Shown: positions 44,785 through 60,129 of the stretch, piece by piece
How the letters are laid out: the number at the start of each line of letters is the position of its first letter
Numbering within the stretch: the stretch's first letter is position 1
Notes under the pieces: model-generated
Told to the model about the DNA's origin: nothing
The model's input: the letters and a program-made list of their open reading frames with translations, nothing else
Databases searched by the model: none
Assembly: GCA_022843325.1 (NCBI GenBank)
Contig: JALHNV010000010.1
Span: 1 to 61,746, forward strand
DNA length: 61,746 nt
Direction of reading: 5' to 3'
Source: Pseudolabrys sp.
GTDB lineage: Bacteria; Pseudomonadota; Alphaproteobacteria; Rhizobiales; Xanthobacteraceae
Translations under genes and position numbers: made by a program

Positions 44785-44812
44785 GGCTTTGGGGCGAGCC
44801 TGAATTGTTGTG
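44785..44812 (-). promoter_or_regulatory. 28-bp regulatory element, copy 1
   Basis: In gene orientation: CACAAC-N4-CAGGCT-N6-AAAGCC, with TT before the first and second boxes. Degenerate, but spacing (4 and 6) and the CCC before the third box match the other copies. Its inner end is 72 bp from the start of the 46-residue membrane protein. Confidence 0.6.
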
Positions 44813-44833
44813 AATTCGGGGTGGCGACGCGTC

Positions 44834-45808
44834 TCACTCGATCACCTCGTCGGCGCGGGCGAGCAGCATCGGCGGTATCGAGAGGCCAAGCGCCTTCGCC
44901 GCTTTCAGGTTGATCACGAGTTCGAATTTTGTGGGCTGTTCGACAGGGAGATCGGCGGGCTTGGCGCCCCGCAAAATCTTGTCGACATATTCGGCGCCGT
45001 GCTTGAACAAATCGGAAAAGCTCGGACCATACGAGAGAAGGCCGCCCGCCTGCACAAATTCCCGATACGCGAAGACCGACGGCAACCGGGCGTCCGTCGC
45101 GAGCACGCTGATGCGTGCGCGGTTGGTCAGCGTCAGAGGCTCGTTGGTGACATAGAGCGCCTGAGCGTTGCCTTTGGCGCGCTGGATGGCCTCGGCAATG
45201 TCATCCGCCCGACGGATTTCTAGAACTTGAATCTCGGTGCCGAGATTTCCGGCGCTCCGCTGCGCCTCATGCATCTGTTCGACGGCGTTCTGGGCATTGA
45301 CGTTGACCAGGACCGCCACGCGGCGAAGGCCGGGCACGAGATCCCGCAAGAGTTCGAGATGCTTGCCGGCCAGTTCGGAGCTTTGCAACGATAGCCCCGT
45401 CATGTTGCCGCCCGGACGAGAGAGGCTGGCGACCAGCCCCGTCCCAACGGGGTCACCGGCGACAAAGACGATGGGAATCTGCGCAGTGGCGCGCTTCACG
45501 GCCGAGACGATGGGCGTTCCGTTCGTGAAGATCACGTCGACCTTGCGCGAGACGAGCTCCGCTGCCGCCGTTGCCGCGCGCTCCGCACTCCCCTCCGCCC
45601 AGCGATACTCGATCGTCACTGTTCGTCCTTCGACCCAGCCAAGCTCCCGGAGACGGTCAACAAAGGCCGCCGTCAGTCGTGTCTGCCCTTGCTGGGTCGA
45701 TGCGCCGATGAAGCCGATCGTCTTGCCGGCTTCTTGGGCACGGACGAGCGATGGCACGGTCCACAAGGCGCAAAGGCCCGCGCGCACGATGAAATCTCGT
45801 CGTTTCAT
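44834..45808 (-). CDS. ABC_sub_bind-family periplasmic binding protein, copy 1
   Basis: 324 residues from the ATG at 45808, which has GGGAGGAACA directly upstream. A longer start lies 4 codons before but would overlap that site. The leader KRRDFIVRAGL ends at VRAQ. The type 1 binding fold shows TIGFIGAST, VDVIFTNGTP, PIVFVAGDPVGTGLVASLSRPGGNMTGLS and the conserved C-terminus FELVINLKAAKALGLSIPPMLLARADEVIE in pieces. PF04392 proteins resemble tryptophan/LIV-type receptors. No ABC permease or ATPase is anywhere near. First of seven in the window. Confidence 0.9.
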   Translation of the reverse strand: MKRRDFIVRAGLCALWTVPSLVRAQEAGKTIGFIGASTQQGQTRLTAAFVDRLRELGWVEGRTVTIEYRWAEGSAERAATAAAELVSRKVDVIFTNGTPIVSAVKRATAQIPIVFVAGDPVGTGLVASLSRPGGNMTGLSLQSSELAGKHLELLRDLVPGLRRVAVLVNVNAQNAVEQMHEAQRSAGNLGTEIQVLEIRRADDIAEAIQRAKGNAQALYVTNEPLTLTNRARISVLATDARLPSVFAYREFVQAGGLLSYGPSFSDLFKHGAEYVDKILRGAKPADLPVEQPTKFELVINLKAAKALGLSIPPMLLARADEVIE

Positions 45809-45842
45809 TGTTCCTCCCATGATACGGCTGTGGCCGGCTGCA

Positions 45843-46613
45843 TTAGTCTATGCGTTCATAGCCTCGCGAAACCACACCCGAGTCAGCCTTTGGCGACATG
45901 AAAAACTTGAGGAGAGCCTCGGCCTCTGTCTTTGTCTTGGTGGCGCTGCTGACGCCACCCGTCATCACAATGTAGTCCTGAAGTTCCGCCGGCCAGGCGC
46001 CGGCGAGTTCGACGCCCTTCGCGGCCGTGATCAAGGGAACCGGCATCAGCACAGCGTCAACCGAACCCGATGAAACGCCGCCCAGGTTTTCCGCCACACC
46101 GCCTGCCTTGAGCTTGGGCAGCGCCTGTTCCGCGATGCCGAGCTTTCCGAGCATGCCGCGGACCACCGGCCCGGTCGAACCGACGGCCACGTATCCGATC
46201 GAGTTGAACTTGAGAACGGCGCTTCTAAGCGCGGCCGGCGTTCCGACATCGGGCTTCGTCGCCCCGGCGCGCACGCCAACCCCCATTCCGAACCTTGCGA
46301 TATTCGTCGCCGTGCCGGCTCGCACGGTGCCCTGTGCGATCATGTCAGCGATGTGCTTCGGGTCGCTGATCGCCACATCGAAGCCGGGGCTCTCGGTCGC
46401 GGCTTGCGGTATCTGTGGGGTGAGAGCGAACCGCACGGCAACCTTGTGGCCGGTCTCCCGCTCGAATTCCGGAACCAAGGCGTCCACGACCGGCTTCAGC
46501 CCCAGTGAACTCAGGAGTTTCAACTCGGCGGCATGCGCCGCCTGCGGCAAACCGAGAATGGCGCCGGACCAGAGTACGCAAGCCAGCACCTTCAACGTTT
46601 TCATCGACGACAT
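45843..46613 (-). CDS. ModA-like extracellular solute-binding protein
   Basis: 256 residues from the ATG at 46613 (CAAGGAGAT upstream). The signal peptide ends AHAAE near 29. The type 2 fold starts LKLLSSLGLKPVVDALVPEFERETGHKV and has FDVAISDPKHIADM and FGMGVGVRAGA, as in molybdate/tungstate-type receptors. ModB/ModC are absent, and similar lone proteins are annotated only as substrate-binding. A copy of the 28-bp element sits 76 bp upstream, so it belongs to the proposed regulon. Confidence 0.85.
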   Translation of the reverse strand: MSSMKTLKVLACVLWSGAILGLPQAAHAAELKLLSSLGLKPVVDALVPEFERETGHKVAVRFALTPQIPQAATESPGFDVAISDPKHIADMIAQGTVRAGTATNIARFGMGVGVRAGATKPDVGTPAALRSAVLKFNSIGYVAVGSTGPVVRGMLGKLGIAEQALPKLKAGGVAENLGGVSSGSVDAVLMPVPLITAAKGVELAGAWPAELQDYIVMTGGVSSATKTKTEAEALLKFFMSPKADSGVVSRGYERID

Positions 46614-46688
46614 GGCGATCTCCTTGTTTTGCCGGGACGGCAGGGCATGTGCGTTCGCGCTCGCAACATACGTTCAGCGCAGAGATCG

Positions 46689-46716
46689 ATCCTTGGGGCA
46701 GACCTGAAATGTCCTG
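46689..46716 (-). promoter_or_regulatory. 28-bp regulatory element, copy 2
   Basis: In gene orientation: CAGGAC-ATTT-CAGGTC-TGCCCC, then AAGGAT. It lies between the ModA-like gene and the next ABC_sub_bind gene, 76 bp before the ModA-like start. Confidence 0.75.
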
Positions 46717-46744
46717 AATCGGGCCGCGCGTCACGGCCCATGGC

Positions 46745-47722
46745 TCATTCGATCACCTCGTCGGTCCGGGCGAGCAACGCGGGCGGCACGGTAAGGCCGA
46801 GCGCCATCGCCGTCTTCAGGTTGATGACGAGTCCATATTTGGTCGGTTGCTCCACCGGGAGTTCGCCGGGCTTGGCACCTTTGAGGATGCGGTCCACGTA
46901 GACGGCCGCGCGCCGGTACATGACCTCCTGACTGGCAGCGTAGGCCAGCAGGCCGCCCATCTTGGGAACGAGCAGATTCGACGAAACCGCCGCCAGCCGG
47001 TGCTTGCTGACGAGGTCAATGACCTCCCTGCTTGTGAGACTGCCCTGGATCATGAGGAAATCGGAATTGCTGTCGGCGATCGTCTTGAAGACATCGTCCA
47101 TCGGCTGTGACGGTCGCACCATGAATATCTGCACCAACAGCCCTAAAGTGGCCGCGTCACGCTCGATGTGCGCGACGAAAGGCTTCGTGAATCCATCGGT
47201 TTCGTTGGCGAGCACCGCGACGCTTTGCGCCGTCGGCTTCAATTCACGCAACAATTCAAGCGTTTTGCCGGCAATCTCCGCCGCCGCTGCCGAGATGCCG
47301 GTGACATTGCCCTCTGGGCGCGCCAGGCTGGTGACCAGGCCCGTGCCGAGCGCATCGCCGACGGGCGCCATAACGATAGGAATGTCGCCCGTCGCGCGTT
47401 TGGCCGCGAGCGCGGCGGGCGTCTGGAAGGCGACGATCACATCGACTTTGTCGCGGACCAGCTCTGCGGCCAGTTCATCCAGCCTGTCGGGCCTGTTCCC
47501 GGCGTTACGAGCGTCCAGGCGAATATTTCGTCCTTCGACGTAGCCGAGCGATTCCAGGCCTAAGCGCAACTCCTTCAAGAAGAGGTCCGGCGTCGGGCTG
47601 CCGAGCACGAGGACACCGATTTTCGCGGGTCTCGCTTCTTGCGCCTGCTGTGCAATCGCAGGAAACGACAGCGTCAGGCTGGCGACCCCGGCAATCAGAA
47701 TGAATTCGCGGCGGGAGTTCAT
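46745..47722 (-). CDS. ABC_sub_bind-family periplasmic binding protein, copy 2
   Basis: 325 residues. The leader NSRREFILIAG ends at AIAQQ near 25. Family blocks are KIGVLVLGSP, KVDVIVAFQTPAALAAKRATGDIPIVM, GLVTSLARPEGNVTG and the C-terminal LPVEQPTKYGLVINLKTAMALGL with end ARTDEVIE. The 3' 20 bp of the gene are identical to four other copies. The region after residue 190 is divergent (VRPSQPMDDVFKTIADS), so ligands probably differ. Confidence 0.9.
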   Translation of the reverse strand: MNSRREFILIAGVASLTLSFPAIAQQAQEARPAKIGVLVLGSPTPDLFLKELRLGLESLGYVEGRNIRLDARNAGNRPDRLDELAAELVRDKVDVIVAFQTPAALAAKRATGDIPIVMAPVGDALGTGLVTSLARPEGNVTGISAAAAEIAGKTLELLRELKPTAQSVAVLANETDGFTKPFVAHIERDAATLGLLVQIFMVRPSQPMDDVFKTIADSNSDFLMIQGSLTSREVIDLVSKHRLAAVSSNLLVPKMGGLLAYAASQEVMYRRAAVYVDRILKGAKPGELPVEQPTKYGLVINLKTAMALGLTVPPALLARTDEVIE

Positions 47723-47787
47723 TGCTCTTCACCAGGGTTTGAGATCAGCCGAGCGTCGGATGAATTTGCGCCGATGCAGGCGAGGGG

Positions 47788-48783
47788 TCATTCGATCACC
47801 TCGTCGGCGCGGGCGAGCAGCGTCGGCGGCACAATCAGCCCAATTGCCTTCGCCGTTTTGAGATTAATGACGAGCTCATAGTCGGTTGGCTGCTCGAAGG
47901 GCAGCTCCGCCGGCTTAGCTCCCTTCAGGATCCTATCCACCAGTCGCGCGGAACGGCGGAATATCCCAAGAATATTCGGCCCGTAGGAGATGAAGGCGCC
48001 GGCCCTCACCATCGGCCCCATGAACACCATCATCGGCACGCCGCGCGCCAGCGCCAACTGCGCGAGACGTTCGCGTTCGTTCAGCAGCATAGCGTCGTTG
48101 TTGACGATGATGCCGGTCCGCTCCGACGGCTTGATCATCTGAAACGCCGGCTCCACGTCTGCCGGCGTGCGCACTTCGGCGACCTGCAAGGCAATCTGCA
48201 AGCGCGATGCGGCGGCACGACTGTCATCGACAAATTGCCGGGCAAGCCCGGCATCGCTCGGATTGACCAACAAGACCGCACTCTGCATGCCGCCTACGGC
48301 TTCGTTCATGATCTCCATGCGCTTGGCGGTGAGGTCGACTCCCATATTGGAGAGGCCGGTGATGTTTCCGCCCGGTCTCGCCAGGCTCACGACGAGGCCG
48401 CTGGCGACCGGATCGGGAATAACAACGGCGACAATGGGGATGGTCTGGGTCGCGCGTTGCGCTGCCAGCGCGGCCGGCCGGGTGACGGCCACCAGCACAT
48501 CGACCTTGCGCGCGACGAGGTCGGCGGCGTTGCTGGCGAAGCGCTCGTATTGCTCGCCCGCATAGGTGTTGACGAGGACGATGTCGCGGCCTTCCGCATA
48601 GCCGAGATCGGTCAAGCCCTGGCGGATGGCGTTCAGAAAGATCGCCTCCTCCCGTTCATTGCCGGCGTGCCAAAGAATCCCGACGGTCGGGATGCGTTTC
48701 TGCGCGGAGGCCGGGAGCGGCCGCAGCCCCGACGCTGCCGCCACCGCGCCACCGAGAGCCAAGATGAACGCGCGCCGCCTCAT
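47788..48783 (-). CDS. ABC_sub_bind-family periplasmic binding protein, copy 3
   Basis: 331 residues. The leader RRRAFILALGG ends at ASAQ near 28. Blocks TVGILWHAGN, KVDVLVAVTRPAALAAQRATQTIPIVAVV, GLVVSLARPGGNITGLSNM and the C-terminal LPFEQPTDYELVINLKTAKAIGL are present. The start overlaps the end of copy 4 by 4 bp (ATGA), so the two are translated together. Confidence 0.9.
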   Translation of the reverse strand: MRRRAFILALGGAVAAASGLRPLPASAQKRIPTVGILWHAGNEREEAIFLNAIRQGLTDLGYAEGRDIVLVNTYAGEQYERFASNAADLVARKVDVLVAVTRPAALAAQRATQTIPIVAVVIPDPVASGLVVSLARPGGNITGLSNMGVDLTAKRMEIMNEAVGGMQSAVLLVNPSDAGLARQFVDDSRAAASRLQIALQVAEVRTPADVEPAFQMIKPSERTGIIVNNDAMLLNERERLAQLALARGVPMMVFMGPMVRAGAFISYGPNILGIFRRSARLVDRILKGAKPAELPFEQPTDYELVINLKTAKAIGLIVPPTLLARADEVIE

Positions 48784-49754
48784 TCGATCACCTCGTCGGC
48801 GCGGGCTAGCAGTGTCGGCGGGAGCGCGATCCCCAGCGCCCTGGCGGTCCCCTGATTCACCGTCAGCTCGAACCGCGTCGGCCGCTCCATCGGCAGGTCG
48901 GCCGGCCGGGCACCTTTGATCACCTTGTCGACGTAGACCACGATGCGCCGCATCATATCGCCGGCGTTCGCGCCATAGGTGAGCAGCAAGCCATCCTTTA
49001 CCCAGGCGGACCAGTTGCCGACCATGACAATCCGGTTTTTCATGCCGAATTCCGCGATCTGGCGGCGCTGCTGGAGCAGCAGTCGGCTCGATATGACGAT
49101 GAGGCCTTCCGCCCGTTCGCGTAATGCCGTTTCGAAGGCCCCGCCGAAGTCGCCGGCGCGCCGAACCTCAAGCGACGTCACGTTGACGCCCAACCTCGTT
49201 GCGGCCTGCTTGATCTCCTGAAATTCCGGATCGGCATGATCGGGATTCCAGAGGACGCCGACGCGTGAAATACCGGGGACCGCTTCCTTGAGCAGCTCAA
49301 TGACCTTGCCCGACAGTTCGTCATAGACCTGCGTGACGCCCGTGATGTTGCCGCCCGGGCGGGAAAGGCTTGCGACGAGACCGCTCTGGACGGGATCGGT
49401 ACTGACCAGGGCCACGACAGGAATCGTCGACGTGGCCTTCTTGACATGCGGCGCGACGTCGCCGCCGAACGCAAAAATCACGTCCGGCTTCAGGGCCACC
49501 AGCTCCGCGGCGAGCTGGGGCAGCCGCTCGGCGCGGCCCTCCGCAAAGCGGTAGTCGATGGTGATGGTCTTGCCATCCTCGTAGCCGAGATCCTTCAGTC
49601 CGTTCAGCAACAGGCCGATGGGATCGATCTGCGGGGAATTGTACAGCAAGATGCCGAGGCGCTTCCTTGCCGGCGCCTGTTGGGCGGCGGCAGGAAACGG
49701 CAAAAGGAGTATTCCTGCGCCAACTCCCGCGACAAAGCTGCGTCGTGTCGTCAT
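48780..49754 (-). CDS. ABC_sub_bind-family periplasmic binding protein, copy 4
   Basis: 324 residues from an ATG with GGGAGGAGACG upstream, the best ribosome site of the set. The Tat-like leader TTRRSFVAGVGAG ends AAAQQ. Blocks RLGILLYNSP, KPDVIFAFGGDVAPHVKKATSTIPVVALVSTDPV and GLVASLSRPGGNITGVTQVY are present. The C-terminal block is LPMERPTRFELTVNQGTARALGIALPP, less like the others. First gene of the copy 4-copy 3 pair. Confidence 0.9.
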   Translation of the reverse strand: MTTRRSFVAGVGAGILLLPFPAAAQQAPARKRLGILLYNSPQIDPIGLLLNGLKDLGYEDGKTITIDYRFAEGRAERLPQLAAELVALKPDVIFAFGGDVAPHVKKATSTIPVVALVSTDPVQSGLVASLSRPGGNITGVTQVYDELSGKVIELLKEAVPGISRVGVLWNPDHADPEFQEIKQAATRLGVNVTSLEVRRAGDFGGAFETALRERAEGLIVISSRLLLQQRRQIAEFGMKNRIVMVGNWSAWVKDGLLLTYGANAGDMMRRIVVYVDKVIKGARPADLPMERPTRFELTVNQGTARALGIALPPTLLARADEVIE

Positions 49755-49801
49755 CGTCTCCTCCCATAATCTGCTATCGTTCTCACCGCTCCGTCAGCCA
49801 G

Positions 49802-49824
49802 GGCGGAAGCACCACGCTTCCGCC
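49802..49824 (-). terminator. Hairpin after the DUF1080 gene
   Basis: A 9-bp perfect stem (GGCGGAAGC with GCTTCCGCC, loop ACCAC) lies 39 bp beyond the stop of the DUF1080-like gene and before the next binding-protein start. There is no T-tract, so termination is tentative. Confidence 0.5.
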
Positions 49825-49862
49825 TCATGATCATCGGCGACCGGAGCGCCTCGTCTTTGCGG

Positions 49863-50459
49863 TTACAGCGGCTTGATCGCGATCTTTCTGACCTTGATGG
49901 TGCCAGCCGCATGTTGCAGCGCGACCGGCCCTTCGGCAAAGAGGCCGTTGCGCAGTTCCGTGGTCTTCTGGCCGTTGAGGACCACCGTCACGTGCCGGCC
50001 CTTGGCCGTGATCTCGTAAGTATTCCACTTGCCGCCGGCCTTGGGCATCGGATTGACTTCGGCGAAGTGGGTGATGCCGCCGGTGCCGTAGGTCTGGTCC
50101 TTGCGCCCGTCGAAAATGTTGGCCTCGTAACAGGTCCGGTCGGTGATATTGCCGGCGTCGCTGCAGCGGATAAAGATGCCGCTGTTGGCGTCATCGCTCG
50201 CCCAGAATTCGACCTGAAGCACGAAATCCTTGTAGGCGTTGCGGGAGACCAGATAGGCGAAGTCCTTGCCGCTGCGCTTGTCGGCGACGATCAGGCCGTC
50301 CTCCGCGCGCCAGTTGGATTCGCCGACCCGGTTCCAGTCCCCGATCGTCTTGTCGTCCAGCAATGTGACCCACCCGTCGCCGGATTGGGCGGCCGCCGGG
50401 CTGAACGTGAAGGGTGCGAGGGCCAGGCCCAGCACCAGAACGATCGCTTTCCGATTCAT
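49863..50459 (-). CDS. Secreted DUF1080 (3-keto-disaccharide hydrolase-like) protein
   Basis: 198 residues. The signal peptide ends AAAQS near 26. The concanavalin-like fold of DUF1080 shows WVTLLDDKTIGDWNRVGESNW, FVLQVEFWASDDANSGIFIRC, and NTYEITAKGRHVTVVLNGQKT. Family members are carbohydrate-binding or 3-keto-glycoside hydrolases. This one is a minimal single domain. A strong copy of the 28-bp element lies 83 bp upstream, and the 5' leader carries a small GC hairpin (50482-50498). Confidence 0.88.
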   Translation of the reverse strand: MNRKAIVLVLGLALAPFTFSPAAAQSGDGWVTLLDDKTIGDWNRVGESNWRAEDGLIVADKRSGKDFAYLVSRNAYKDFVLQVEFWASDDANSGIFIRCSDAGNITDRTCYEANIFDGRKDQTYGTGGITHFAEVNPMPKAGGKWNTYEITAKGRHVTVVLNGQKTTELRNGLFAEGPVALQHAAGTIKVRKIAIKPL

Positions 50460-50542
50460 TGTCAGTCTCCTCCTGTCCAGGCCGGGCCAGCGGCCCGGTT
50501 TGCGTTATCGACAGGGCCATCATCCTCACAACATCGCTTCAA

Positions 50543-50570
50543 GTCCTTGGGACGGTTCTGAATCGTTCTT
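50543..50570 (-). promoter_or_regulatory. 28-bp regulatory element, copy 3
   Basis: In gene orientation: AAGAAC-GATT-CAGAAC, then CGTCCC and AAGGAC. One of the two best copies. It lies 83 bp upstream of the DUF1080-like gene and 40 bp from the stop of the next binding-protein gene. Confidence 0.85.
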
Positions 50571-50609
50571 AAACCTAGGCCGGCCCGCGCTGATTTTCCC
50601 GCCGCCTCG

Positions 50610-51602
50610 TCATTCGATCACCTCGTCGGCACGGGCCATCAGTGTCGGGGAAACCTCGATTCCGAGTGCCTTGGCTGTCTTGAGGTTGATCGCCAGCTTG
50701 TAATTGGTCGGCTGCTGGACCGGCAGTTCGGCAGGTTTTTCGCCGCGCAGGATGCGATCGACATAGGTGGCCGCCTGCCGGAATTGGTCGGCCAGATCGG
50801 GCCCGTAGGACACCAGGCCGCCGGCCACGACAGAGGGTCGCAGGAAGTAAGCCGTGGGCAAGCGATGTCTCTCGGCCATGGCGATGATCAGACCACGGTT
50901 GCCATCCGTGACAGGGTTCGGCAGCACGACCACCCCACCGTTCGGCTCGCGCGCGAACTGATCGATGGCGCGTTCAAGGGCTGCGGCATCGCGTACGCCG
51001 CTCGCCACCAGTTCCACCCGCAGCGACGGCGCGACCGCCTCGATGGCGCGCAACATCCCTGCCTGCGGTTTCTGGTCCGGATGGAGGATGACGGCAGCGC
51101 GCGTCATGTGCGGCACGACCTCCTTGAGCAACTCCAGCAATTTTCCAAAAATCGAAAATTCAGCCACGGTAAAGCCGGTGAGGTTGCCACCCGGACGCGC
51201 CAGGCTGGCAACGAGGCCGGCACCGACGGGATCAACGATCTGTGTAAAGACAATCGGTATGCGACTGGTCTCCTGCAGGAGTGGCTGCAATGCGAGCCCG
51301 GTGCTGACCAGGATCACGTCGGGATCAAGGCTCACCAGTTCTTTCGCTTGAGCGCGGATGCGTCCGGAGTCGCCGCCGCCCCAGCGATAGTAGATGCGGG
51401 CGTTACGGCCCTCGATCCAGCCGAGTTTTTGCAGTGCCTGCTCGAATGCCGCGACATTGGCCTTCACTTCCGCATCGCTGTCGGCTACCGCGACCAGCAC
51501 GCCGATGCGCCGCACTTTCTCTTGCGCGCGCGCCGCGATCGGCCAGGACAACGACGAGAGGACCGCGCCGCCAGCGCCCCCTATGAATTCTCGCCGCTTC
51601 AT
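50610..51602 (-). CDS. ABC_sub_bind-family periplasmic binding protein, copy 5
   Basis: 330 residues. The leader KRREFIGGAGGAVL ends ARAQE near 27. Blocks RIGVLVAVADSD, DPDVILVSTGLALQPLLQETSRIPIVFTQIVDPVGAGLVASLARPGGNLTGF and the C-terminal LPVQQPTNYKLAINLKTAKALGIEVSP are present. The start overlaps copy 6 by 4 bp. The domain after residue 150 differs from the other copies. Confidence 0.9.
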   Translation of the reverse strand: MKRREFIGGAGGAVLSSLSWPIAARAQEKVRRIGVLVAVADSDAEVKANVAAFEQALQKLGWIEGRNARIYYRWGGGDSGRIRAQAKELVSLDPDVILVSTGLALQPLLQETSRIPIVFTQIVDPVGAGLVASLARPGGNLTGFTVAEFSIFGKLLELLKEVVPHMTRAAVILHPDQKPQAGMLRAIEAVAPSLRVELVASGVRDAAALERAIDQFAREPNGGVVVLPNPVTDGNRGLIIAMAERHRLPTAYFLRPSVVAGGLVSYGPDLADQFRQAATYVDRILRGEKPAELPVQQPTNYKLAINLKTAKALGIEVSPTLMARADEVIE

Positions 51603-52585
51603 TCGATCACCTCGTCGGCTAGCGCGAGCAGCGTCGGCGGCAAAGTCAGGCCGAGCGACTTGGCGGTCTTGAGATTGATTGCGAGTTCGAACTTCGTCGG
51701 CTGCTCGACCGGCAGATCGGCGGGCTTTGCCCCTTTCAGGATACGGTCGATGAAGTAGGCCGTGCGCCGCACCTGTGCGCTGAGATCGACGCCCAAAGTG
51801 GCGAGCGCTCCTGCCCTTGCAAACACAGGATAGTCGGAAATCACCGCCAGCCCGTGCTTCAGGCCGAGCGCGGCAATTTCGGCGGCATGGCCGGTGTAAA
51901 GCGGCTGGATAATGATAGCCTCCGCACCTTCCTTCTTCAACCCGTCGAAGAGCGCCTCGTTTGCCTCTTCGGGACGATCGATGAGGCGCACCAGAAATTT
52001 GATGCCGATCTTGTCGGCATTTCCCTGTGTTTCACGGACAAATGCCGCCGCGCTCGGGCTCCCCGCGTTGCCGAGGAAGGCAACCTTGGCGATGCCAGGC
52101 TTGATCTCGCGCAGGAGTTCGAGCCGCTTGCCGGCCAGGTCCGGCCCCGACATCGAGACGCCGGTAAGGTTGCCGCCCGGCCGCGACAGGCTCGGCACGA
52201 GCTTCGCCGCGACCGGATCGGACGCGATCATCACCATGGGGATGGTCTGGTTTTCCTCTTTGGCAAGTTGCACGGTCGGCGTGGTCCAGGGCACGATGAC
52301 ATCGAACCGGCGTTCGACAAACGACTTCACCGCATCCCTCGCCCGTTGCTTGTCGCCATCGGTAAAATGCGTTTCGATGTCGAACGTCTTGCCTTGCACA
52401 TAGCCCAGCTTGCGCAGCTCCTGGCGGATGCCCTCGACATCGCGCGCAAGTTCCGGCGCGTGCAGGCTGACGACGCCAATTCTGGCAAGCCGCGCGTCCT
52501 GGGCGATCGCCGGACCGGACACGAGCAGTCCCATCAGGACACCCGCAGCCGCCCCTCCGCACATCCTCGATCGATGGTCTCGCAT
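51599..52585 (-). CDS. ABC_sub_bind-family periplasmic binding protein, copy 6
   Basis: 328 residues. The signal peptide ends AIAQD near 29. Blocks RIGVVSLHAPE, RFDVIVPWTTPTVQLAKEENQTIPMVMIASDPVAAKLVPSLSRPGGNLTGVSMSG and the C-terminal LPVEQPTKFELAINLKTAKSLGL are present. It ends ALADEVIE. First gene of the copy 6-copy 5 pair. The 121 bp upstream show no copy of the 28-bp element. Confidence 0.9.
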   Translation of the reverse strand: MRDHRSRMCGGAAAGVLMGLLVSGPAIAQDARLARIGVVSLHAPELARDVEGIRQELRKLGYVQGKTFDIETHFTDGDKQRARDAVKSFVERRFDVIVPWTTPTVQLAKEENQTIPMVMIASDPVAAKLVPSLSRPGGNLTGVSMSGPDLAGKRLELLREIKPGIAKVAFLGNAGSPSAAAFVRETQGNADKIGIKFLVRLIDRPEEANEALFDGLKKEGAEAIIIQPLYTGHAAEIAALGLKHGLAVISDYPVFARAGALATLGVDLSAQVRRTAYFIDRILKGAKPADLPVEQPTKFELAINLKTAKSLGLTLPPTLLALADEVIE

Positions 52586-53209: not shown

Positions 53210-53237
53210 GTCCTTGGGGCGGTTCTGAAAGGTTCTT
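53210..53237 (-). promoter_or_regulatory. 28-bp regulatory element, copy 4
   Basis: In gene orientation: AAGAAC-CTTT-CAGAAC, then CGCCCC and AAGGAC. It differs from copy 3 only in the linkers. It lies 72 bp upstream of the cupin gene and just beyond the stop of the PP2C phosphatase gene. Confidence 0.85.
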
Positions 53238-53265
53238 AAGGCGCCGCTCCACGGCCCGCCGTCTG

Positions 53266-54441
53266 TCATGACGGCATTCGCCGCAACGCCAGCATCGTGA
53301 TGTCATCGGACGCCGGCGCCGTGCCGACAAAGCTCTTCACCGCATCACTGATGACGGTCACGATCTCGGCACTGCGCCGCCCTGAGACGGCACGCAGGAC
53401 AGCCTCCAGACGTTCCTCCGAGAACAAGAGCCCCGCCGGATCGTGCGCCTCGGTCACCCCGTCGCTAAACAGATAAAGGGTCTCGCCTGGCTCCAGGGTC
53501 AGCGTTCCGGTCCGATAGGTGGCCTGCGGCCGCACGCCGAGAATGATGCCCTTGCCCTCGTCGAGCGCCGCAAGTGCGCCGCCGCCGATGCGGTACGGCG
53601 GATTATGACCGGCATTGCAGTAGGCCAGGTCGCCGGTCGCGGGCTTCAGCATCCCGAAGAACATGGTCACAAACATCATGTCGCTGTTGTTCTGGCAAAG
53701 CTCGCGGTTGACGCGGCCGATGATCTCGGCCGGCCCGGCCGCACCGTCACGGCTGCGCATAAGCTCTGTGGCAAGGCGAATCAGGCTCTTGGTGCGCGCC
53801 ATGAACAAGGCCGCCGGCATGCCCTTGCCCGACACGTCGCCGACGAAGAAACAGAACGAGCCGTCGTCGGTGAGGAAGAAGTCATAGAGATCCCCGCCCA
53901 CCTCTCGTGCCGGCTGAATGAGGCCGTGCACATCGACTGGACATAGCGCAGTCGGCTCCGGAAATTTTTGCGGCAGCATCGACATCTGCAGATCGCGGGC
54001 CGCCTGCAATTCCTGCTCCAGCCGGGCAAGATGAGCATTGACCTCGTCGCGCAGCCGCTTCTTGTCGAGGCTCGCGCCGAGCCGGGCACGCAGCAGGTGC
54101 TGATTGAAAGGCTTCTGCAGATAGTCGACGGCGCCCAGTTCAATGCAGCGGACGACGCTGCTCATTTCATTGAGCGCGGAAATCATGATCACCGGCAAAT
54201 CGGCGAGGCGCTTCTCGCCCTTCAGCCAGGTCAGCACCTGATAGCCATCGACCTTCGGCATCATGACGTCGAGCAGGACGAGGTCGAATTGCCGTTCCTT
54301 GAGCGCGGCGATGGCCTGCTCGCCGTCTTCGGCAATCGCCAAATCGGTATAGCCCTCCAGCTCCAAATAGAGCGTGAGGGTGTAGCGGTTGTCGTCGTTG
54401 TCGTCGACAACCAGGATGCGGGGGGCTGCGTCAGGGTGCAT
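53266..54441 (-). CDS. RsbU-like response regulator: receiver plus PP2C phosphatase
   Basis: 391 residues. Receiver (about 8-125) with acidic DDNDDN, phospho-Asp in LVLLDVMMPKVDG near 57 and Lys in YLQKPFNQ. A short coiled linker (about 130-165) follows. The SpoIIE/PP2C domain (about 175-390) has metal-binding EVGGDLYDFF and GDVSGKGMPAALFM, plus LYLFSDGVTEA. Such proteins dephosphorylate STAS anti-anti-factors when their receiver is phosphorylated. Two STAS genes lie 2-4 kb upstream, and the possible kinase is the hybrid kinase at 40.7 kb. It follows the permease gene by 9 bp. Confidence 0.93.
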   Translation of the reverse strand: MHPDAAPRILVVDDNDDNRYTLTLYLELEGYTDLAIAEDGEQAIAALKERQFDLVLLDVMMPKVDGYQVLTWLKGEKRLADLPVIMISALNEMSSVVRCIELGAVDYLQKPFNQHLLRARLGASLDKKRLRDEVNAHLARLEQELQAARDLQMSMLPQKFPEPTALCPVDVHGLIQPAREVGGDLYDFFLTDDGSFCFFVGDVSGKGMPAALFMARTKSLIRLATELMRSRDGAAGPAEIIGRVNRELCQNNSDMMFVTMFFGMLKPATGDLAYCNAGHNPPYRIGGGALAALDEGKGIILGVRPQATYRTGTLTLEPGETLYLFSDGVTEAHDPAGLLFSEERLEAVLRAVSGRRSAEIVTVISDAVKSFVGTAPASDDITMLALRRMPS

Positions 54442-54450: not shown

Positions 54451-56160
54451 TCAATGCTGGAAATGGAATTCGAGCACGGCACTGTCGCCCTTGCGGCTCG
54501 CGCGCACACGGTCGGCATTGCGCTGAATCAGGTATCCGGCCAGCAGGCGCAGTCCCTCGTCCGTTTCACGGATCTGCGCGTCGGTCGGTCGGCGCTCCGG
54601 CAGAATTAAATCGTCGCCCTGGTAGATGAGCCGGACATCGAGATTGAACTCGTCGAAAGATGCCTCGAGCGTTATGGGGCCCTGCACATTGCAATGCTCG
54701 ACAATGCTTTCGACCGACTGCGCAGCGCCGAAGATCGCACGTTCGATCACGTCGCGACGGGCGCCCCATTTTGCCCCCTGCTGATCGAGGAAAGTGCGTA
54801 CCGCATCGTGGTTGTCGGCATCTGGCGCCAGCAACACTGACGCTCGGGTTTTTACGCCAATGCGAAAGATGGCATTCAGGAATAGCGCGGTCACAAGACC
54901 GATGACAAGGCTGGAGGTGACGAACGGCTGCAACAGCGCCGGCGCCTTTGCATAGAGCGCGGGAAAGATTTCGTAGCCAAGGCTGGCGGTGAGGGCAATC
55001 CCGACGATGAACGACCGCCGCGCGTCGAGCAGTCGGCTGGTGATAATCTGCAGCCCACTCACGATAATGAAGCAGGCCGTGAACAGAAAAGCCGCCCCAA
55101 TCACCGGGCGCGGCATGGCCACCATGACGGCCGATACGATCGGAAACATTGAAAATACGATCAGCAGCCCGCCGAGCCAGAACCCCACCCAGCGCGAGGT
55201 CACGCCCGTGGCATTCGACATACCGATGGAAGAGGACTGCGTGTTGCCGCCGATGCTGCCGAAGAAGCCGGCAATGACCGTCGCAAAGCCGTTGGCGGTG
55301 ATTCCGGTTCGGATCGACGTCATGTCGGGACGAATCCAGTCCCGATCGTTGATCTTCTGCGCGGCGCTGAGGTCGCCCATGCCACGCAGCGCGCAGGTGA
55401 GCGCCGCGGCCATGAACGGAACGATGAGCTCGACGCTCAGCTGCGGCAGTTTCGGCGTCCACGCCGGCAACGCAAACACCGGCGCGCTGGCAAGGACCCG
55501 CATCGATTCCGGATTGAAGGCCCCGGCCGCGACGGCAACGAGGTAGCCGCAGACCACGCCGACGATGGCGCAAAGCATCCGAAGATGCCCTTTGCCCCAC
55601 AGATTAAGACCGATCATCAGAGTAAGCGTCCCGGCGCTAATCAGAAGTTCGGTCCGGGTCGCGGTTGCCTGCATCGTTGCCTTGTCCAGACCGAACAGCG
55701 CCTGGATGGCAAGAATGCCGACATACATGCCAATCAGCAGAATGCAGAGGCCGGAAATTTCAGCCGGAAAGAAAGGCCGGAAGCGACGTACTATTTGGGC
55801 AAAACCAATCTCGAAAATGCCGGCGAGCATGGTCATGCCGGCGAGCAGCGGCAGGCCGCCCGTTTTGATCGCGATGATGCTGATGGGAACGTAGGGAGCC
55901 GCCGGCGCGGAGGTGATGAGAAACCCGGACCCCAGCCACTTGCCCGGCCAGGCCTGCAATATGGTGCCGACGCCGCACACCAGGATCGTCAGGCTCACCA
56001 CCTGAGCGACGACATCTTCGCTGGCGCCGCTGCCGCGCATTACCAGAACCGTGTAGATTAAAATCGGTGCCAATACCGTCAGCTGCTGTGCCGCGTTGGC
56101 GAAGCAGATCAGGGCCGGCGGCTTCTCATCGACGCTGTAGATCAAATTGCTTGGGCGCAT
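54451..56160 (-). CDS. NCS2 (xanthine/uracil) permease fused to a degenerate GHKL ATPase-like domain
   Basis: 569 residues (CAAGGAG upstream). Residues about 15-435 form an NCS2-type transporter: paired helices, GSGFLITSAPAAPYVPISII, AALTCALRGMGDLSAAQKIND and the GFFGSIGGNTQSSSIGMSNATGVTSRWVG block near 320. After about 440 a soluble tail aligns with RsbW/GHKL kinases (SVESIVEHC for the N-box, LIYQGDDLILP for the G1 box), but the ATP-binding Asn and the Asp of DxG are gone. It therefore looks like a pseudo-kinase tail. Encoded between the STAS gene and the RsbU-like gene, it probably links purine-like ligand transport to partner switching. Confidence 0.85.
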   Translation of the reverse strand: MRPSNLIYSVDEKPPALICFANAAQQLTVLAPILIYTVLVMRGSGASEDVVAQVVSLTILVCGVGTILQAWPGKWLGSGFLITSAPAAPYVPISIIAIKTGGLPLLAGMTMLAGIFEIGFAQIVRRFRPFFPAEISGLCILLIGMYVGILAIQALFGLDKATMQATATRTELLISAGTLTLMIGLNLWGKGHLRMLCAIVGVVCGYLVAVAAGAFNPESMRVLASAPVFALPAWTPKLPQLSVELIVPFMAAALTCALRGMGDLSAAQKINDRDWIRPDMTSIRTGITANGFATVIAGFFGSIGGNTQSSSIGMSNATGVTSRWVGFWLGGLLIVFSMFPIVSAVMVAMPRPVIGAAFLFTACFIIVSGLQIITSRLLDARRSFIVGIALTASLGYEIFPALYAKAPALLQPFVTSSLVIGLVTALFLNAIFRIGVKTRASVLLAPDADNHDAVRTFLDQQGAKWGARRDVIERAIFGAAQSVESIVEHCNVQGPITLEASFDEFNLDVRLIYQGDDLILPERRPTDAQIRETDEGLRLLAGYLIQRNADRVRASRKGDSAVLEFHFQH

Positions 56161-56204: not shown

Positions 56205-56540
56205 TTATTTTGTCTTTGCGACGCCTTCGTCACGGGTGCCGCAGATCGTGAACAGATCGGTAAACGCGCCGATCTCGAACAACCTCCTGATTTCCGCCGA
56301 CATGCCGCAGAGGACCAGCTTGCCCTTGGCCTCGTCCATCATCTTGGCGGAGATCAACAGGGAGCGGAAGCCGGCGCTGCTGATGTAGGGTATCTGCCGC
56401 AGGTCGATCACCACCCGATGGGCGCCGCCGCCAATCAGCGCCGTCACCCGCTCGCCGAACGGCTTGGCGCTGTTGGTGTCGATCCGGCCCCGCGGCTCCA
56501 CGATGATCGCCCCGTCCTGCTCCGATTCGGTCATCTCCAC
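56205..56540 (-). CDS. STAS-domain anti-anti-factor (RsbV/SpoIIAA-like), left half
   Basis: 111 residues from a GTG at 56540 with AAAGGAG at good spacing. An ATG two codons later is possible. The STAS fold shows GAIIVEPRGRIDTNSAKPF, VVIDLRQIPYISSAGFRSLL, and KLVLCGMSAEIRRLFEIGAF. The SSAG serine is the usual phosphorylation site. Unphosphorylated STAS binds and inactivates its RsbW-type kinase. Lies between the kinase-like gene (21 bp upstream) and the permease fusion. Confidence 0.92.
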   Translation of the reverse strand: MEMTESEQDGAIIVEPRGRIDTNSAKPFGERVTALIGGGAHRVVIDLRQIPYISSAGFRSLLISAKMMDEAKGKLVLCGMSAEIRRLFEIGAFTDLFTICGTRDEGVAKTK

Positions 56541-56561
56541 GACGTTCTCCTTTGCCGGATT

Positions 56562-56978
56562 TCAGGTGGTGAATTTTTTGGTCAGGCACAGCCGATTCGT
56601 ATCGCCGGCCCGCGTATAGGTCAGGTCGTCCATCAGGCTCCGCATGAAATGCACCCCCAGGCCGCCAACCTTGCGCGCGTGCAACGGTGCAATGAGGTCA
56701 GGAGCCGAAACCTGCCGCGGGTCGAAAGGTCGGCCCTGATCCTCGATCAGCAGCACTATCTCGCCGTCCCGCCGTTCCAGCCGAACCTTTATTTCGTCCT
56801 GCGCGCCATCCTCGTAGCCGTAAGCAATGATGTTGTTGAGCACCTCGTCTAACACCACATTGAGGTCGTGCAGAACCGACTGTGGCAGCCCGTTCTCTCC
56901 TGCGAATCGGCCGAGCATGCTGGTGACGATCGGCATGTCTTCCCAACGGTTGAGGATACGCGCCTCAATTTGCCTCAC
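56562..56978 (-). CDS. RsbW-like serine kinase/anti-factor (HATPase_c), left half
   Basis: 138 residues from the GTG at 56978 (GGGG upstream). A TTG at 57005 would add nine residues and is also possible. N-box LDEVLNNIIAYGYED, G1 box IEDQGRPFDP and a GGLGVHFMRSLMDDLTY segment show an intact GHKL kinase. RsbW proteins phosphorylate STAS partners and sequester an output protein. It is the first gene of the left operon, which continues with STAS, permease fusion and PP2C phosphatase. Confidence 0.9.
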   Translation of the reverse strand: MRQIEARILNRWEDMPIVTSMLGRFAGENGLPQSVLHDLNVVLDEVLNNIIAYGYEDGAQDEIKVRLERRDGEIVLLIEDQGRPFDPRQVSAPDLIAPLHARKVGGLGVHFMRSLMDDLTYTRAGDTNRLCLTKKFTT

Positions 56979-57122
56979 TGTGAAACCCCATGACGCGCGA
57001 CGCAATCGATGCGTCCTTCATAGAACATGGCAGGCCCGAACCCGCCCGTCACCGCCCCCCTGTGTGACGATGCCGGGAGCGATCCAGCAGACGCTCCGAT
57101 CTTGCCGCAGCGCAGCGATCAT

Positions 57123-57150
57123 GTCTTTGGCTGCGGCCTGATATTTCCTG
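57123..57150 (-). promoter_or_regulatory. 28-bp regulatory element, copy 5, in the divergent control region
   Basis: In gene orientation for the left operon: CAGGAA-ATAT-CAGGCC-GCAGCC, then AAAGAC. It lies between the two divergent partner-switching operons, 118-145 bp from the left kinase start (depending on the start used) and 94 bp from the right STAS start. If functional, the module regulates itself. The weakest but correctly spaced match together with copy 1. Confidence 0.55.
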
Positions 57151-57243
57151 AATTCTTATGAATCGCCCTGCAACCCATTCATTCGCGCAAGATTTGCCAG
57201 TACAGTTAAATCCAAGGGCAGCGCTGGCGGGGGCTGGAAAGCG

Positions 57244-57579
57244 ATGGAACTTAAGGTCGAAGAACACACGGACGGCGCCACCATTGCCGTGTTGCGCGGT
57301 CGTTTCGATACGACCGGAGCGATCGCCATCGAGCTTCCGTTCAATGCGCTGGCCAGCGAGCGGCCGGCGCTTGTCGCCGATCTGTCGGACGTAAATTTCA
57401 TGTCGTCATACGGGATCCGCGTCCTGCTCCGCGCCGCCAAGATCGCCAAGAGCAAAAACGCGCGCCTCTTGATCGTTTGCCCGGATACAGCCGTGTGCAA
57501 AGTGCTCCAGACGGCCGGAACCAGCGATCTCATTCCGGTGTATCCGACGATCGCTGCGGCGATGGCAGTCCTGGGTTGA
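57244..57579 (+). CDS. STAS-domain anti-anti-factor, right half
   Basis: 111 residues. STAS motifs are GATIAVLRGRFDTTGAIAIE, LVADLSDVNFMSSYGIRVLL with the phospho-serine in MSSYG, and RLLIVCPDTAVCKVLQTAG. It has the same length as the left STAS protein but clearly diverged sequence, so the two probably pair with different kinases. Its own kinase gene follows after 4 bp. Confidence 0.92.
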   Translation: MELKVEEHTDGATIAVLRGRFDTTGAIAIELPFNALASERPALVADLSDVNFMSSYGIRVLLRAAKIAKSKNARLLIVCPDTAVCKVLQTAGTSDLIPVYPTIAAAMAVLG

Positions 57580-57583
57580 CGTC

Positions 57584-58030
57584 ATGCCCGCGACGCACAC
57601 AACGAGCGGCGGCCGGCTCGTTCTGCGGACGAGCCTTGGCGAAATCCCACGGCTCGCGGCCTGGGTCGACGACGTCGCACGCCAAACCGCCCTGCGAGCG
57701 GAGACCGTCTTTGCGATTCAGCTCTGCCTCGAAGAGGCGATTGCCAACGTCATCATGTATGGTGACTCGCCGGAAGATTCGCCGATCTCCGTCGAACTTG
57801 GCTTCGGTAACGATGGTGCCACGGCCGTGATCGAAGACCGGGGCCGGCCGTTCGACCCGACAGCCCTGCCGCCTCGCATCAAGCCCACGTCGCTCGATGA
57901 TTCCAAAATTGGGGAGCTCGGCGTTCATCTGATCCGGAATTATTCGCGGACGATGCGCTATCAGCGGGTCGATGGCTGCAATCGCCTCACCCTGACGTTC
58001 GAGACGACATCATCCGGGGTGCAGGCGTGA
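57584..58030 (+). CDS. RsbW-like serine kinase/anti-factor, right half
   Basis: 148 residues. N-box CLEEAIANVIMYG, G1 box IEDRGRPFDP, and GELGVHLIRNYSRTMRYQRVDGCNRLTLTF complete an intact GHKL domain. The stop overlaps the start of the winged-helix ATPase gene (GTGA). In classical systems this place is taken by the sigma factor that RsbW holds. Here it is taken by a transcription regulator, which is the best candidate for the sequestered output. Confidence 0.92.
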   Translation: MPATHTTSGGRLVLRTSLGEIPRLAAWVDDVARQTALRAETVFAIQLCLEEAIANVIMYGDSPEDSPISVELGFGNDGATAVIEDRGRPFDPTALPPRIKPTSLDDSKIGELGVHLIRNYSRTMRYQRVDGCNRLTLTFETTSSGVQA

Positions 58031-60090
58031 CCCCGCTACTCCCCCCGGCCTTCGCTTTCGGCCCATTCCGCCTGGTTGTGCAACGCCGCGAACTTCTGCT
58101 GCACGGCATCCCCGTCATGCTCGGGCAACGCGCAATTGAGGTGTTGCTGGCCTTGGTCAGTCGTGCCGGTCAGCTTGTCACCAAGGACGAGATCATGACG
58201 GCAGTCTGGCCCGGCGTGATTGTCGAAGAGAACAACCTTCAGGTCCACATCTCGGCATTGCGCAAGGCGCTAGGAACAGCCGGCGACCCGAAGTCATTCC
58301 TGCAGACGGTGGCCGGGCGCGGTTATCGCTTCGTCGCCGCGGTCGAAATCGACAGCATGGATGCCAAGCCCGCCCCGGCCGTGCCGTCCGAGCCAGCATC
58401 GGCGTCGGTATCGCCGCTCCCAAGCAACCTGCCACGGCAACTGACCAGCTTTGTTGGTCGCGAGGCCGAACTCGACCTCCTGACACAAGAACTTCAGCGC
58501 CACCGCCTCGTCACGCTCACAGGCCCGGGCGGCGTCGGCAAGACGCGCCTGGCCGTCGAGGCCGGCTGGCAGGTGGTGAACCGCTATCCCCACGGTGTTT
58601 GGATCGTTGAACTTGCGCCCTTGCAGGAGAAGACCCTCGTCGCCTTCGCGATTGCCGAGGTCCTCGGCATTGCGATCCCCGCCGGCGTCGCTGTGTTTCC
58701 CGCTCTCGTTTCTGCCCTTGGCGACCGGCACATCCTCCTGATCTTCGACAACTGCGAACACCTCATCGGCGCGGCCGCAGTAGCCGCCGAGGCGCTGCTG
58801 CGTGCCGTGCCGAACCTGTCGATCCTGGCGACCAGCCGCGAGCGTCTCGCGATCGACGGAGAAAAGGTCCTGAACGTGCCACCGTTAGCGATGCCCGCAA
58901 CAGCGGAGATCACCGCCGCCCAGGCCGGAGCATTCGACGCCGTGCGACTTTTTGCGGAGCGGGCCCGTGCGCTGGACGAAAACTGGCTCCTCACCGACGC
59001 GAGCGCCGCCGGGGTTTCGGCGATTTGCCGGCGGCTGGACGGCATGCCTCTGGCCATTGAAATGGCGGCTCCGATGCTACGCGTCCTGTCTCTGCCGCAA
59101 ATCGCCGCCGGACTCGACGAGCGATTCAGGTTCTTCACGGCCGCCACGCGCACCGCGTTGCCTCATCATCGCTCGCTCCAAGCGGTGATCGATTGGAGCT
59201 ACTCCCTGTTGAGCGAGCCCGAAAAGCAGCTTCTGCAAGGGCTTTCGGTCTTTTCAGGCAGCGTCAACCGCGAAGCGATCGCCGCCGTGGCCACGGACGC
59301 CACCTTGCCCGCGGCGGACATTCTGGGCCAGCTGCGGCTGCTGATCGACAAATCGCTGGTCGTTCCTGAACGCGGCGCCGGCGGCATCCGCTACCGGCTC
59401 CTTGAAACAACGCGTGAATACGCACGCGACAAGCTCGGACCGGAGGCGACGCTCACCTCACATCGACGGCATGCGGATTTTTTCCGGGCGATGCTCAGAC
59501 AGGCCAGCATTGATTGGGAAACCACTGGCGTTGAACCCTGGCTCGACCGTTATGCTACTGACCTCGACGAAGTGCGGGCGGCGCTGCAGTGGGCCTTCGG
59601 GCCGCAAGGCGACGCTCGACTAGGGATCGAACTGGCTGCAAACAGTCACGTGTTCTGGGGCGAGCTCGGGCTTGCTTCCGAACACAGGCGCTGGGTGCAA
59701 GAAGCACTTGCCCGCACGGACGATTCCACGCCGACCGAAACGATGGCCCAGCTTCTTTCGTGGCATGCCGGCGACGTCAAGGACATCGACGATCCATCCG
59801 ATTACGACGACGCCCTGCGCGCGGCCGAACTGCACGCGCAGCTTGGCAATGCATTCGCTCAAGGGCAAAACTTGCTCCGCGCGGGCAGTGCCCTCTTTCT
59901 TTCCGGCGATGACGGCGGAGAGGCCATGCTCCGCAAGGCTTACGCGCTCCTCGAACCCTTCGGCGCAACGAAGACTCAGGCGCGTTGTCTCAGCGCGATG
60001 GCATCGTCTTCGTTGCTGGCAGGCGATTTGTCGAAAGCAAAACATTTACATAATCAGGCGATGGTGGTCGCCCAACAGATCGAAGCTTAA
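58027..60090 (+). CDS. Winged-helix (OmpR/CadC-type) STAND ATPase regulator
   Basis: 687 residues from a GTG overlapping the kinase stop. The OmpR-type winged helix (about 8-105) has LGQRAIEVLLALV and VWPGVIVEENNLQVHISALRKAL. The NB-ARC-like ATPase has Walker A LTGPGGVGKTRL near 165 and Walker B ILLIFDNCEH near 238. Then come the winged-helix-like arm (YRLLETTREYARDKL) and a TPR-like tail that ends early at AQQIEA. Relatives I know run some 200-300 residues longer, so the tail may be truncated. STAND proteins switch between inactive ADP and oligomeric ATP forms; binding by the RsbW-like kinase could hold it off. Confidence 0.9.
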   Translation: MTPLLPPAFAFGPFRLVVQRRELLLHGIPVMLGQRAIEVLLALVSRAGQLVTKDEIMTAVWPGVIVEENNLQVHISALRKALGTAGDPKSFLQTVAGRGYRFVAAVEIDSMDAKPAPAVPSEPASASVSPLPSNLPRQLTSFVGREAELDLLTQELQRHRLVTLTGPGGVGKTRLAVEAGWQVVNRYPHGVWIVELAPLQEKTLVAFAIAEVLGIAIPAGVAVFPALVSALGDRHILLIFDNCEHLIGAAAVAAEALLRAVPNLSILATSRERLAIDGEKVLNVPPLAMPATAEITAAQAGAFDAVRLFAERARALDENWLLTDASAAGVSAICRRLDGMPLAIEMAAPMLRVLSLPQIAAGLDERFRFFTAATRTALPHHRSLQAVIDWSYSLLSEPEKQLLQGLSVFSGSVNREAIAAVATDATLPAADILGQLRLLIDKSLVVPERGAGGIRYRLLETTREYARDKLGPEATLTSHRRHADFFRAMLRQASIDWETTGVEPWLDRYATDLDEVRAALQWAFGPQGDARLGIELAANSHVFWGELGLASEHRRWVQEALARTDDSTPTETMAQLLSWHAGDVKDIDDPSDYDDALRAAELHAQLGNAFAQGQNLLRAGSALFLSGDDGGEAMLRKAYALLEPFGATKTQARCLSAMASSSLLAGDLSKAKHLHNQAMVVAQQIEA

Positions 60091-60101
60091 ACCTGGCCTT
60101 T

Positions 60102-60129
60102 CAGAACATTTCATGTCTGTCCCAAGGAC
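60102..60129 (+). promoter_or_regulatory. 28-bp regulatory element, copy 6
   Basis: In gene orientation: CAGAAC-ATTT-CATGTC-TGTCCC, then AAGGAC. The only plus-strand copy, and it precedes a plus-strand gene: its inner end is 70 bp from the haloperoxidase-like start, the same placement as on the minus strand. Confidence 0.8.

Follow-up and report, generated by a model that had tools for sequence, protein, structure and literature searches.

Which protein reads a DNA element that recurs in front of the genes of a signalling island in Pseudolabrys sp. (Alphaproteobacteria; Rhizobiales; Xanthobacteraceae)? The window that we analyzed, 61,746 nucleotides of assembly GCA_022843325.1, is the whole of contig JALHNV010000010.1 (C10), so the island may extend beyond the contig end. 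An initial annotation, made from the letters of the window, had reported a 28-bp direct-repeat element in six copies and proposed as its reader an OmpR-type winged-helix protein encoded at 58027–60090. Our analysis supports this finding and goes beyond it: the six units would be operator-promoters of a winged-helix-STAND regulator whose regulon is local and autogenous. The regulator gene and the elements are as follows.

58027 to 60090, forward strand: proposed regulator, OmpR-type winged helix, STAND ATPase and helical repeats, 687 aa
44785 to 44814, reverse strand: element 1; -10-like CATGGT at 44761–44766; upstream of a 46-aa membrane open reading frame (ORF) and a hybrid histidine kinase; second-lowest matrix score
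46689 to 46718, reverse strand: element 2; -10-like TATGTT at 46665–46670; upstream of a ModA-like substrate-binding protein and a PF04392 gene (operon extent presumed from orientation)
50543 to 50572, reverse strand: element 3; -10-like GATGAT at 50519–50524; upstream of a PF06439 (DUF1080-type) gene and three PF04392 genes (operon extent presumed)
53210 to 53239, reverse strand: element 4; -10-like GAAGAT at 53186–53191; upstream of a cupin and two PF04392 genes (operon extent presumed)
57123 to 57152, reverse strand: element 5; -10-like CAAGAT at 57099–57104; between divergent partner-switching operons; weakest of the six
57153 to 57162, reverse strand: additional half-site TTCATAAGAA on the upstream side of element 5, at a distance of 10 bp
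60100 to 60129, forward strand: element 6; -10-like CAAGCT at 60148–60153; upstream of a PAP2/haloperoxidase-like gene

All six sites lie where the initial annotation had placed them (44785, 46689, 50543, 53210, 57123 and the region of 60102) and have the layout it described, a TTCAGRAC-like box, a 2-bp linker, a TTCAGRNC-like box, a 6-bp linker ending in CC(C) and an AAGGAC-like box, with constant spacing throughout. With an invariant leading TT included, the 28-bp unit becomes one of 30 bp, ungapped across all six. From the end of the element to the ATG we measured 71, 75, 83, 71 and 69 bp at the five single promoters, in agreement with the 70–83 bp of the initial annotation. The half-sites within an element are 10 and then about 11 bp apart; head-to-tail direct repeats with a 10–11 bp period are an operator feature of OmpR/PhoB-type regulators. 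Element 5 is preceded 10 bp upstream by an additional TTCA(T) repeat that had been missed, and one relative (G014) carries TTCAGAACGA where the window has this extra half-site.

A weight matrix built from the six sites, the check that the annotation had proposed, separates them from all other window positions: they score 35.8–47.3, and the next-best position scores 13.6. That position, 36462, is also the best in the first 44 kb, which had been described as free of copies. Across 50 Markov-1 random windows the best score averaged 6.5 and never exceeded 13.4. In leave-one-out scans each withheld site ranked fifth or sixth among all window positions, the five training sites included; the weakest sites were 44785 and 57123, the latter scoring 16.1 when withheld. 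A sequence-only covariance model built on the six elements (R1) recovered them from the whole 3.88-Mb genome at E 3.4e-6 to 7.8e-4 and gave no other match below E 0.6 among the 150 of 538 first-look candidates that were scored. Comparable matches outside the island were thus not found, rather than the equal numbers elsewhere in the genome that would speak against a regulon.

Each unit also appears to hold a promoter, which had gone unnoticed. A hexamer of the form NAnnnT stands exactly 18 bp after the element at six of six sites (the -10-like hexamers given above), and at the other offsets from 8 to 29 bp the key A and T occur in 0–1 of the six sites each. Among the 18 sites aligned across five genomes, 17 retain both letters and L172 does not. 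The last box is placed like a -35 (AGGACN, 17 bp, then the -10) and is best read as the -35 region of the promoter. At the five single promoters the -10 ends 45–59 bp upstream of the start codon. EcfG-type and sigma54 promoters, whose consensus was compared by eye, did not fit the sequence. Judged by its sequence, each unit is an operator-promoter in which direct repeats end in a -35-like box, and it seems nearly certain to us that the elements function as such.

The protein proposed to read these operators is OmpR-like in its winged helix and is not a plain OmpR-type regulator, since this domain is fused to a STAND ATPase. The winged helix matches PF00486 (Trans_reg_C) at 1.3e-16, its sequence relatives in the PDB are PhoB, OmpR and CadC, and Foldseek aligns the DNA-binding domains of CadC and SaeR to the regulator model with TMt 0.85–0.87. 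AAA_16/nSTAND1 matches in the regulator are weak and below the Pfam cut-off; in a Burkholderia homologue NB-ARC is above it. With the AlphaFold model (pLDDT 75, pTM 0.39), Foldseek ranked the STAND-TPR protein 6mfv first, followed by Apaf-1/CED-4 (E about 1e-11 to 1e-8); full-length TM-scores are low and the model does not establish the domain arrangement. No BTA domain was matched by Pfam after the winged helix at E<=0.001. The recognition helix, residues 68–83, carries EENNLQVHI; the window regulator shares E68, N69 and L71–I75 without change with those of G014, G025, G039 and the two Burkholderia genomes described below.

Conservation in front of orthologues, another check proposed in the annotation, bears the element out. 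Two relatives, G014 (regulator 69–70% identical) and G025 (64%), have five and three elements, respectively, in the fetched parts of the orthologous contigs. When five promoters of G014 and one of G025 are paired with their orthologues in the window, 140/180 positions of the element are identical (78%) versus 106/360 (29%) of the preceding 60 bp; the 18-bp spacer has 63/108 and the 56 bp after the -10 has 138/336. In G025 the island is rearranged, yet the PAP2 gene and the kinase operon still carry their elements; its divergent promoter has only a degenerate copy, seen by eye and under the matrix threshold, with a repeat 1 bp shorter. The overlap of the regulator gene with that of RsbW2, the RsbW-type kinase encoded just before it, and the order of the genes are kept in G014, G025 and locus L044, which lacks the permease and the second kinase. 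The genome of L044 (G067; regulator 55%) has elements on four other small contigs, preceding two PF04392 genes, one LysR gene and one gene without a Pfam match; the 18-site alignment takes in three of these four, L173 being left out for a linker one base shorter. Within the genus, a regulator orthologue (E<=1e-40) is present in 3 of 43 genomes.

The element tracks the regulator gene across genomes, which points to the protein at 58027–60090 as a candidate for binding it. Among 60 genomes (the source genome and 59 relatives), R1 matched at E<=0.01 in four: six times in the source genome (G000), five in G014, twice in G025 (with a third match at E 0.058) and once in G039. These are exactly the four genomes with a regulator homologue at E<1e-100, and the next match in any other of the 60, in a listing made with stricter filters, had E 0.016. 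Since G000 was used to build the model and the island is common to G014 and G025, G039 is the independent case. There the homologue match covers residues 7–568 of 687, and the regulator alone among 19 window queries matched the fetched 20-kb locus (two of the 19 were wrong frames: ORF 56230–56589, where the real gene is the STAS gene at 56205–56540, and ORF 44484–44837, where the real ORF is the 46-aa one).

A relaxed pattern, TTMAGRANNNTTCAG, was run against 26 genomes: the four with R1 matches, 12 from 80 named homologue loci and 10 others with homologues at E<=1e-75. It gave 48 matches versus 12 for the reversed-pattern control, and for 28 of the 48 a winged-helix-STAND gene encoding Q or E at position 72 is no more than ~40 kb away. 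All six matches in Burkholderia territorii (G068) and all seven in B. catarinensis (G069) fall in one ~40-kb region around the regulator homologue, whose recognition helix EENNLQVHIAALRKAL is almost the same as EENNLQVHISALRKAL; in the 21-kb loci of both genomes none of the 19 window queries besides the regulator matched. One of two matches in G071 and the sole match in G072, a full element with GATGAT at the -10 position, adjoin Q-helix winged-helix-STAND genes distinct from the ones for which the two genomes had been selected. The sole match in G134, and likewise in G358, is 0.1–0.2 kb from a winged-helix-STAND gene. Across the class (385 genomes, with 14 candidates scored in each), the R2 scan returned the source genome (six sites) and two lone weak matches at E 0.002–0.003. 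In the 80 named loci TTCAG-N5-TTCAG occurs 13 times versus 1.8 expected.

Several observations weigh against this reading. In the source genome, G014 and G025, which supplied the model or share the island, element and regulator may occur together through joint inheritance of one block. The genomes of L044, L060, L064, L068 and L076 were chosen after motif matches had been seen in their loci, and what these added was that the two Burkholderia genomes have no matches elsewhere. G439 has a Q-helix homologue but no site. Seven homologues classed as NNLQ-like did not differ significantly from 91 others by a higher core score in the 400 bp upstream (Mann-Whitney p=0.095), in a class that omitted NTLQ and NSLQ helices and with the L044 and L068 sites lying beyond 400 bp; shuffle p<0.01 was reached by 2/7 versus 3/91. 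The strict two-box pattern TTCAGAACNNTTCAG matched 17 times in the 385 genomes versus 16 for its reversed control, with one of the 17 next to a regulator gene in the stretches of ~3 kb that were read, and CTCACAACNNCTCAC matched seven times versus seven, again with one by a regulator gene. As TTCAGAACNNTTCAG runs at the background rate over the class, the two-box core is meaningful only in genomes holding such a regulator and is not diagnostic alone. Other TTCAG gaps are also raised in the named loci, less strongly than N5 (gap 4, 6 vs 2.2; gap 6, 5 vs 2.0; gap 7, 9 vs 2.4).

Taken at the level of sequence, the element, its -10 hexamer, their conservation and the link to the regulator gene are directly evident, and they suggest that the regulator physically binds the elements. 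We consider the gene at 58027–60090 very probably the correct regulator, and the operator-promoter reading together with this regulator highly probable, a shade less so.

Three other accounts can be set against this one. The elements might be real operators bound by another protein, such as an unlinked response regulator activated by the hybrid kinase, with the winged-helix-STAND gene a mere neighbour; the hybrid kinase does require an output, and the genome has other winged-helix genes. In G039 and the two Burkholderia loci, however, the winged-helix-STAND gene is the sole match of the 19 queries and the motif adjoins it, the pattern matches in G071 and G072 also led to winged-helix-STAND genes, and Pfam finds no second DNA-binding domain among the island proteins scanned from 40.7 to 61.5 kb, so that we regard another reader as very unlikely. 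Still less probable is a promoter for an alternative sigma factor, with AAGGAC as its -35, NAWGNT as its -10 and the TTCAG repeats as extended -35 contacts. The fixed geometry from AAGGAC over 18 bp to the -10 would suit it, as would the usual control of sigma factors by partner-switch genes (PMC8256260). Yet the strong columns include two half-sites 10 bp apart upstream of the -35, the half-sites vary with the recognition-helix group of the winged helix at constant spacing, and no sigma factor was found among the same scanned island proteins, the rest of the window and the genome not having been searched for one.

The regulator might instead be a repressor or autoregulator at these sites, with another factor activating, and the divergent site 57123 with its extra half-site could serve both operons in that way. 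Against this, the operators lie upstream of and at the -35, not over the -10 or the start, and their shared orientation and similar distance at five promoters would fit activation. We judge repression unlikely, and activation by the winged-helix-STAND regulator a likely outcome of its binding.

What, then, would the regulator control, and what would control it? The genes of the island are the following.

40707 to 44450, reverse strand: hybrid histidine kinase, dCache-HAMP-GAF-GAF-HisKA-HATPase-REC-REC by Pfam
44573 to 44713, reverse strand: 46-aa membrane ORF, the first ORF after element 1; no Pfam match
44834 to 45820, reverse strand: PF04392 substrate-binding protein by Pfam
45843 to 46613, reverse strand: SBP_bac_11 (ModA-like) by Pfam, the first gene after element 2
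46745 to 49754, reverse strand: three PF04392 substrate-binding proteins by Pfam
49863 to 50459, reverse strand: PF06439 3-keto-disaccharide hydrolase family (DUF1080-type), the first gene after element 3
50610 to 52585, reverse strand: two PF04392 substrate-binding proteins
52707 to 53144, reverse strand: cupin, the first gene after element 4
53266 to 54441, reverse strand: receiver and SpoIIE phosphatase
54451 to 56160, reverse strand: NCS2-type permease with a conserved C-terminal extension
56205 to 56540, reverse strand: second STAS protein, SSAG motif; PF01740 at 2.6e-18
56562 to 57005, reverse strand: second RsbW-type kinase (RsbW1); start probably an internal GTG
57244 to 57579, forward strand: STAS (RsbV-type), the first gene of the regulator operon
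57584 to 58030, forward strand: RsbW-type kinase RsbW2 (HATPase_c_2), overlapping the regulator start by 4 bp
60199 to 61494, forward strand: PAP2/vanadium-haloperoxidase-like protein, the first gene after element 6; match below the Pfam cut-off

The small membrane protein that the annotation had named as a target is the 46-aa ORF, to which we add the hybrid histidine kinase that comes next. The regulator operon runs STAS, RsbW2, regulator, and the divergent operon RsbW1, STAS, permease, receiver-SpoIIE, so that the STAS protein, HATPase_c_2 kinase and SpoIIE-type phosphatase of an RsbVW partner-switch set are all present. The STAS loop has a serine, which we take to align with SpoIIAA Ser58. 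As separate observations, six PF04392 substrate-binding proteins are interleaved with the element-headed genes from 44834 to 52585, with neither an ABC permease nor an ABC ATPase gene seen in the ORFs scanned in that stretch. The C-terminal extension of the NCS2 permease (~127 aa, 54451–54834) is 83–87% identical in G014 and G025 and lies outside the Pfam match; a comparison with RsbW as a degenerate domain gave no support (hhalign probability 1.4).

In the mechanism that we propose, the half-sites TTCAGRAC and TTCAGRNC would be followed by CCCAAGGAC overlapping the -35 region, with a sigma70-type -10 18 bp on; the winged-helix domain would bind the repeats side by side and recruit RNA polymerase to promoters with a weak -35. 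The regulon would be the island itself: sensor kinase, substrate-binding proteins, hydrolase, cupin, PAP2 enzyme and signalling genes. The RsbW-type kinase encoded just before the regulator may keep it in check until the hybrid kinase fires, whereupon the receiver-SpoIIE phosphatase and the STAS proteins would free it, closing a positive loop. The chain would run from substrate-binding proteins and hybrid kinase through receiver-SpoIIE, STAS and RsbW to the STAND activator and back to the same promoters. Whether the partner switch controls the regulator, as gene order suggests, is in our estimate an even question. If it does drive the STAND activator, an island of periplasmic-binding proteins would sense, amplify and express itself.

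Many proteobacterial genera have winged-helix-STAND regulators (80 loci were retained from at least 590 confirmed relatives); they occur, at E<=1e-75, in 11 of 385 genomes of the class. We examined the 300 bp upstream of 97 winged-helix starts in homologue loci, reduced to 66 at <75% domain identity. Exact five-letter direct repeats at a 10-bp period stand before 29 of the 66, where shuffling gives 14.2 and control regions taken from these loci give 13.5, and no other period from 6 to 25 bp exceeded both controls to a similar degree. The frame N5-RAC-N2-N5 occurs in 12/66 versus 1.65 expected; it was noticed on the same data, its p of 8e-8 is descriptive, and L137 and L138 among the 12 had entered through the TTCAG pattern. 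Control frames were somewhat raised for AAC at an 11-bp period (3/66, 0.24 expected) and for RCA (4/66, 1.17 expected), and gave 0 of 66 at periods 9 and 12 and for CAA. By recognition helix, in an assignment that is partly post hoc, the half-site is TTCAG with N-x-L-Q, CTCAC with Bradyrhizobium LRFH, TTAAC and TGCCG with two Pseudomonas LRVH groups, TTTAC with LR[IV]HIGTLRK (two loci) and TTTAG with RLHVH (one locus). That winged-helix-STAND regulators share an N5-AAC-N2-N5 grammar of 10-bp period whose five-letter word is set by the recognition helix, and that the partner switch here controls a STAND activator instead of a sigma factor, has as a joint claim about an equal chance of being right or wrong.

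Further repeats were seen along the way. Pseudomonas loci L049, L052, L055 and L105 have TTAACAACNNTTAAC repeats upstream of winged-helix-STAND paralogues, and L049, L055 and L105 also have TGCCGMACRCTGCCG. More distant winged-helix genes have TCAAG-type tandem repeats with an 11-bp period just upstream (L012 1916–1968, L015 1409–1460, L013 1863–1892), which may be a second operator type in the wider family. The Burkholderia ~40-kb region (L166–L168 in G068; L169–L171 in G069), with six or seven TTCAG elements, contains by Pfam a second winged-helix-STAND gene and mechanosensitive-channel, cytochrome c and TetR genes in G068, and alpha/beta hydrolase and MFS genes in G069. TTCAGAACATTTCAGTGAAA and a conserved flank recur in three genomes of one genus (L207, L217, L218), with no winged-helix gene within the fetched stretch, and TTCAG repeats are present in a Bacteroidetes contig (L115, 3304).

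The arrangement resembles known systems in part. OmpR/PhoB-type regulators, including ToxR, have a winged helix of the same Pfam family, and the tox-box consensus proposed for ToxR, TNAAA-N5-TNAAA, likewise places a 5-bp gap between half-sites for a 10-bp period (PMC8517210); here, in contrast, the half-site is another one, a third box lies at the -35 and a STAND ATPase replaces the receiver or membrane anchor. AfsR, a large SARP of Streptomyces, combines a winged helix with a NOD ATPase and TPR and acts through direct repeats at a promoter whose -35 is poor (TTCAGC); in SARP operators the repeats are spaced by 11 or 22 bp, with 8 bp between the last one and the -10 (PMC10936776). Here the half-sites are 10 and then about 11 bp apart, the last box is 18 bp from the -10 at six of six sites, no BTA domain was found and the gene stands beside partner-switch genes. 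The present system would thus work like ToxR and AfsR but departs from SARPs in two of their marks, the BTA domain and the 8-bp distance. With RsbV/RsbW/SpoIIE systems it shares STAS, HATPase_c_2 and receiver-SpoIIE proteins; partner switching canonically ends in a sigma factor (PMC8256260), whereas here a winged-helix-STAND gene follows the RsbW gene and the scanned genes include no sigma factor. A literature search over titles and abstract openings, with subscription papers mostly outside it, returned no report of an operator for winged-helix-STAND regulators or of a partner switch acting on a STAND regulator.

With an operator grammar that can be read, the targets of winged-helix-STAND regulators would become predictable from sequence. 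In Rhodobacter capsulatus, the authors of a study on RbaVW were unable to identify the sigma factor that would go with it (PMC3999984). If true, a STAND activator as the output of a partner switch would offer a testable answer for such alphaproteobacterial RsbVW systems without an identified sigma factor.

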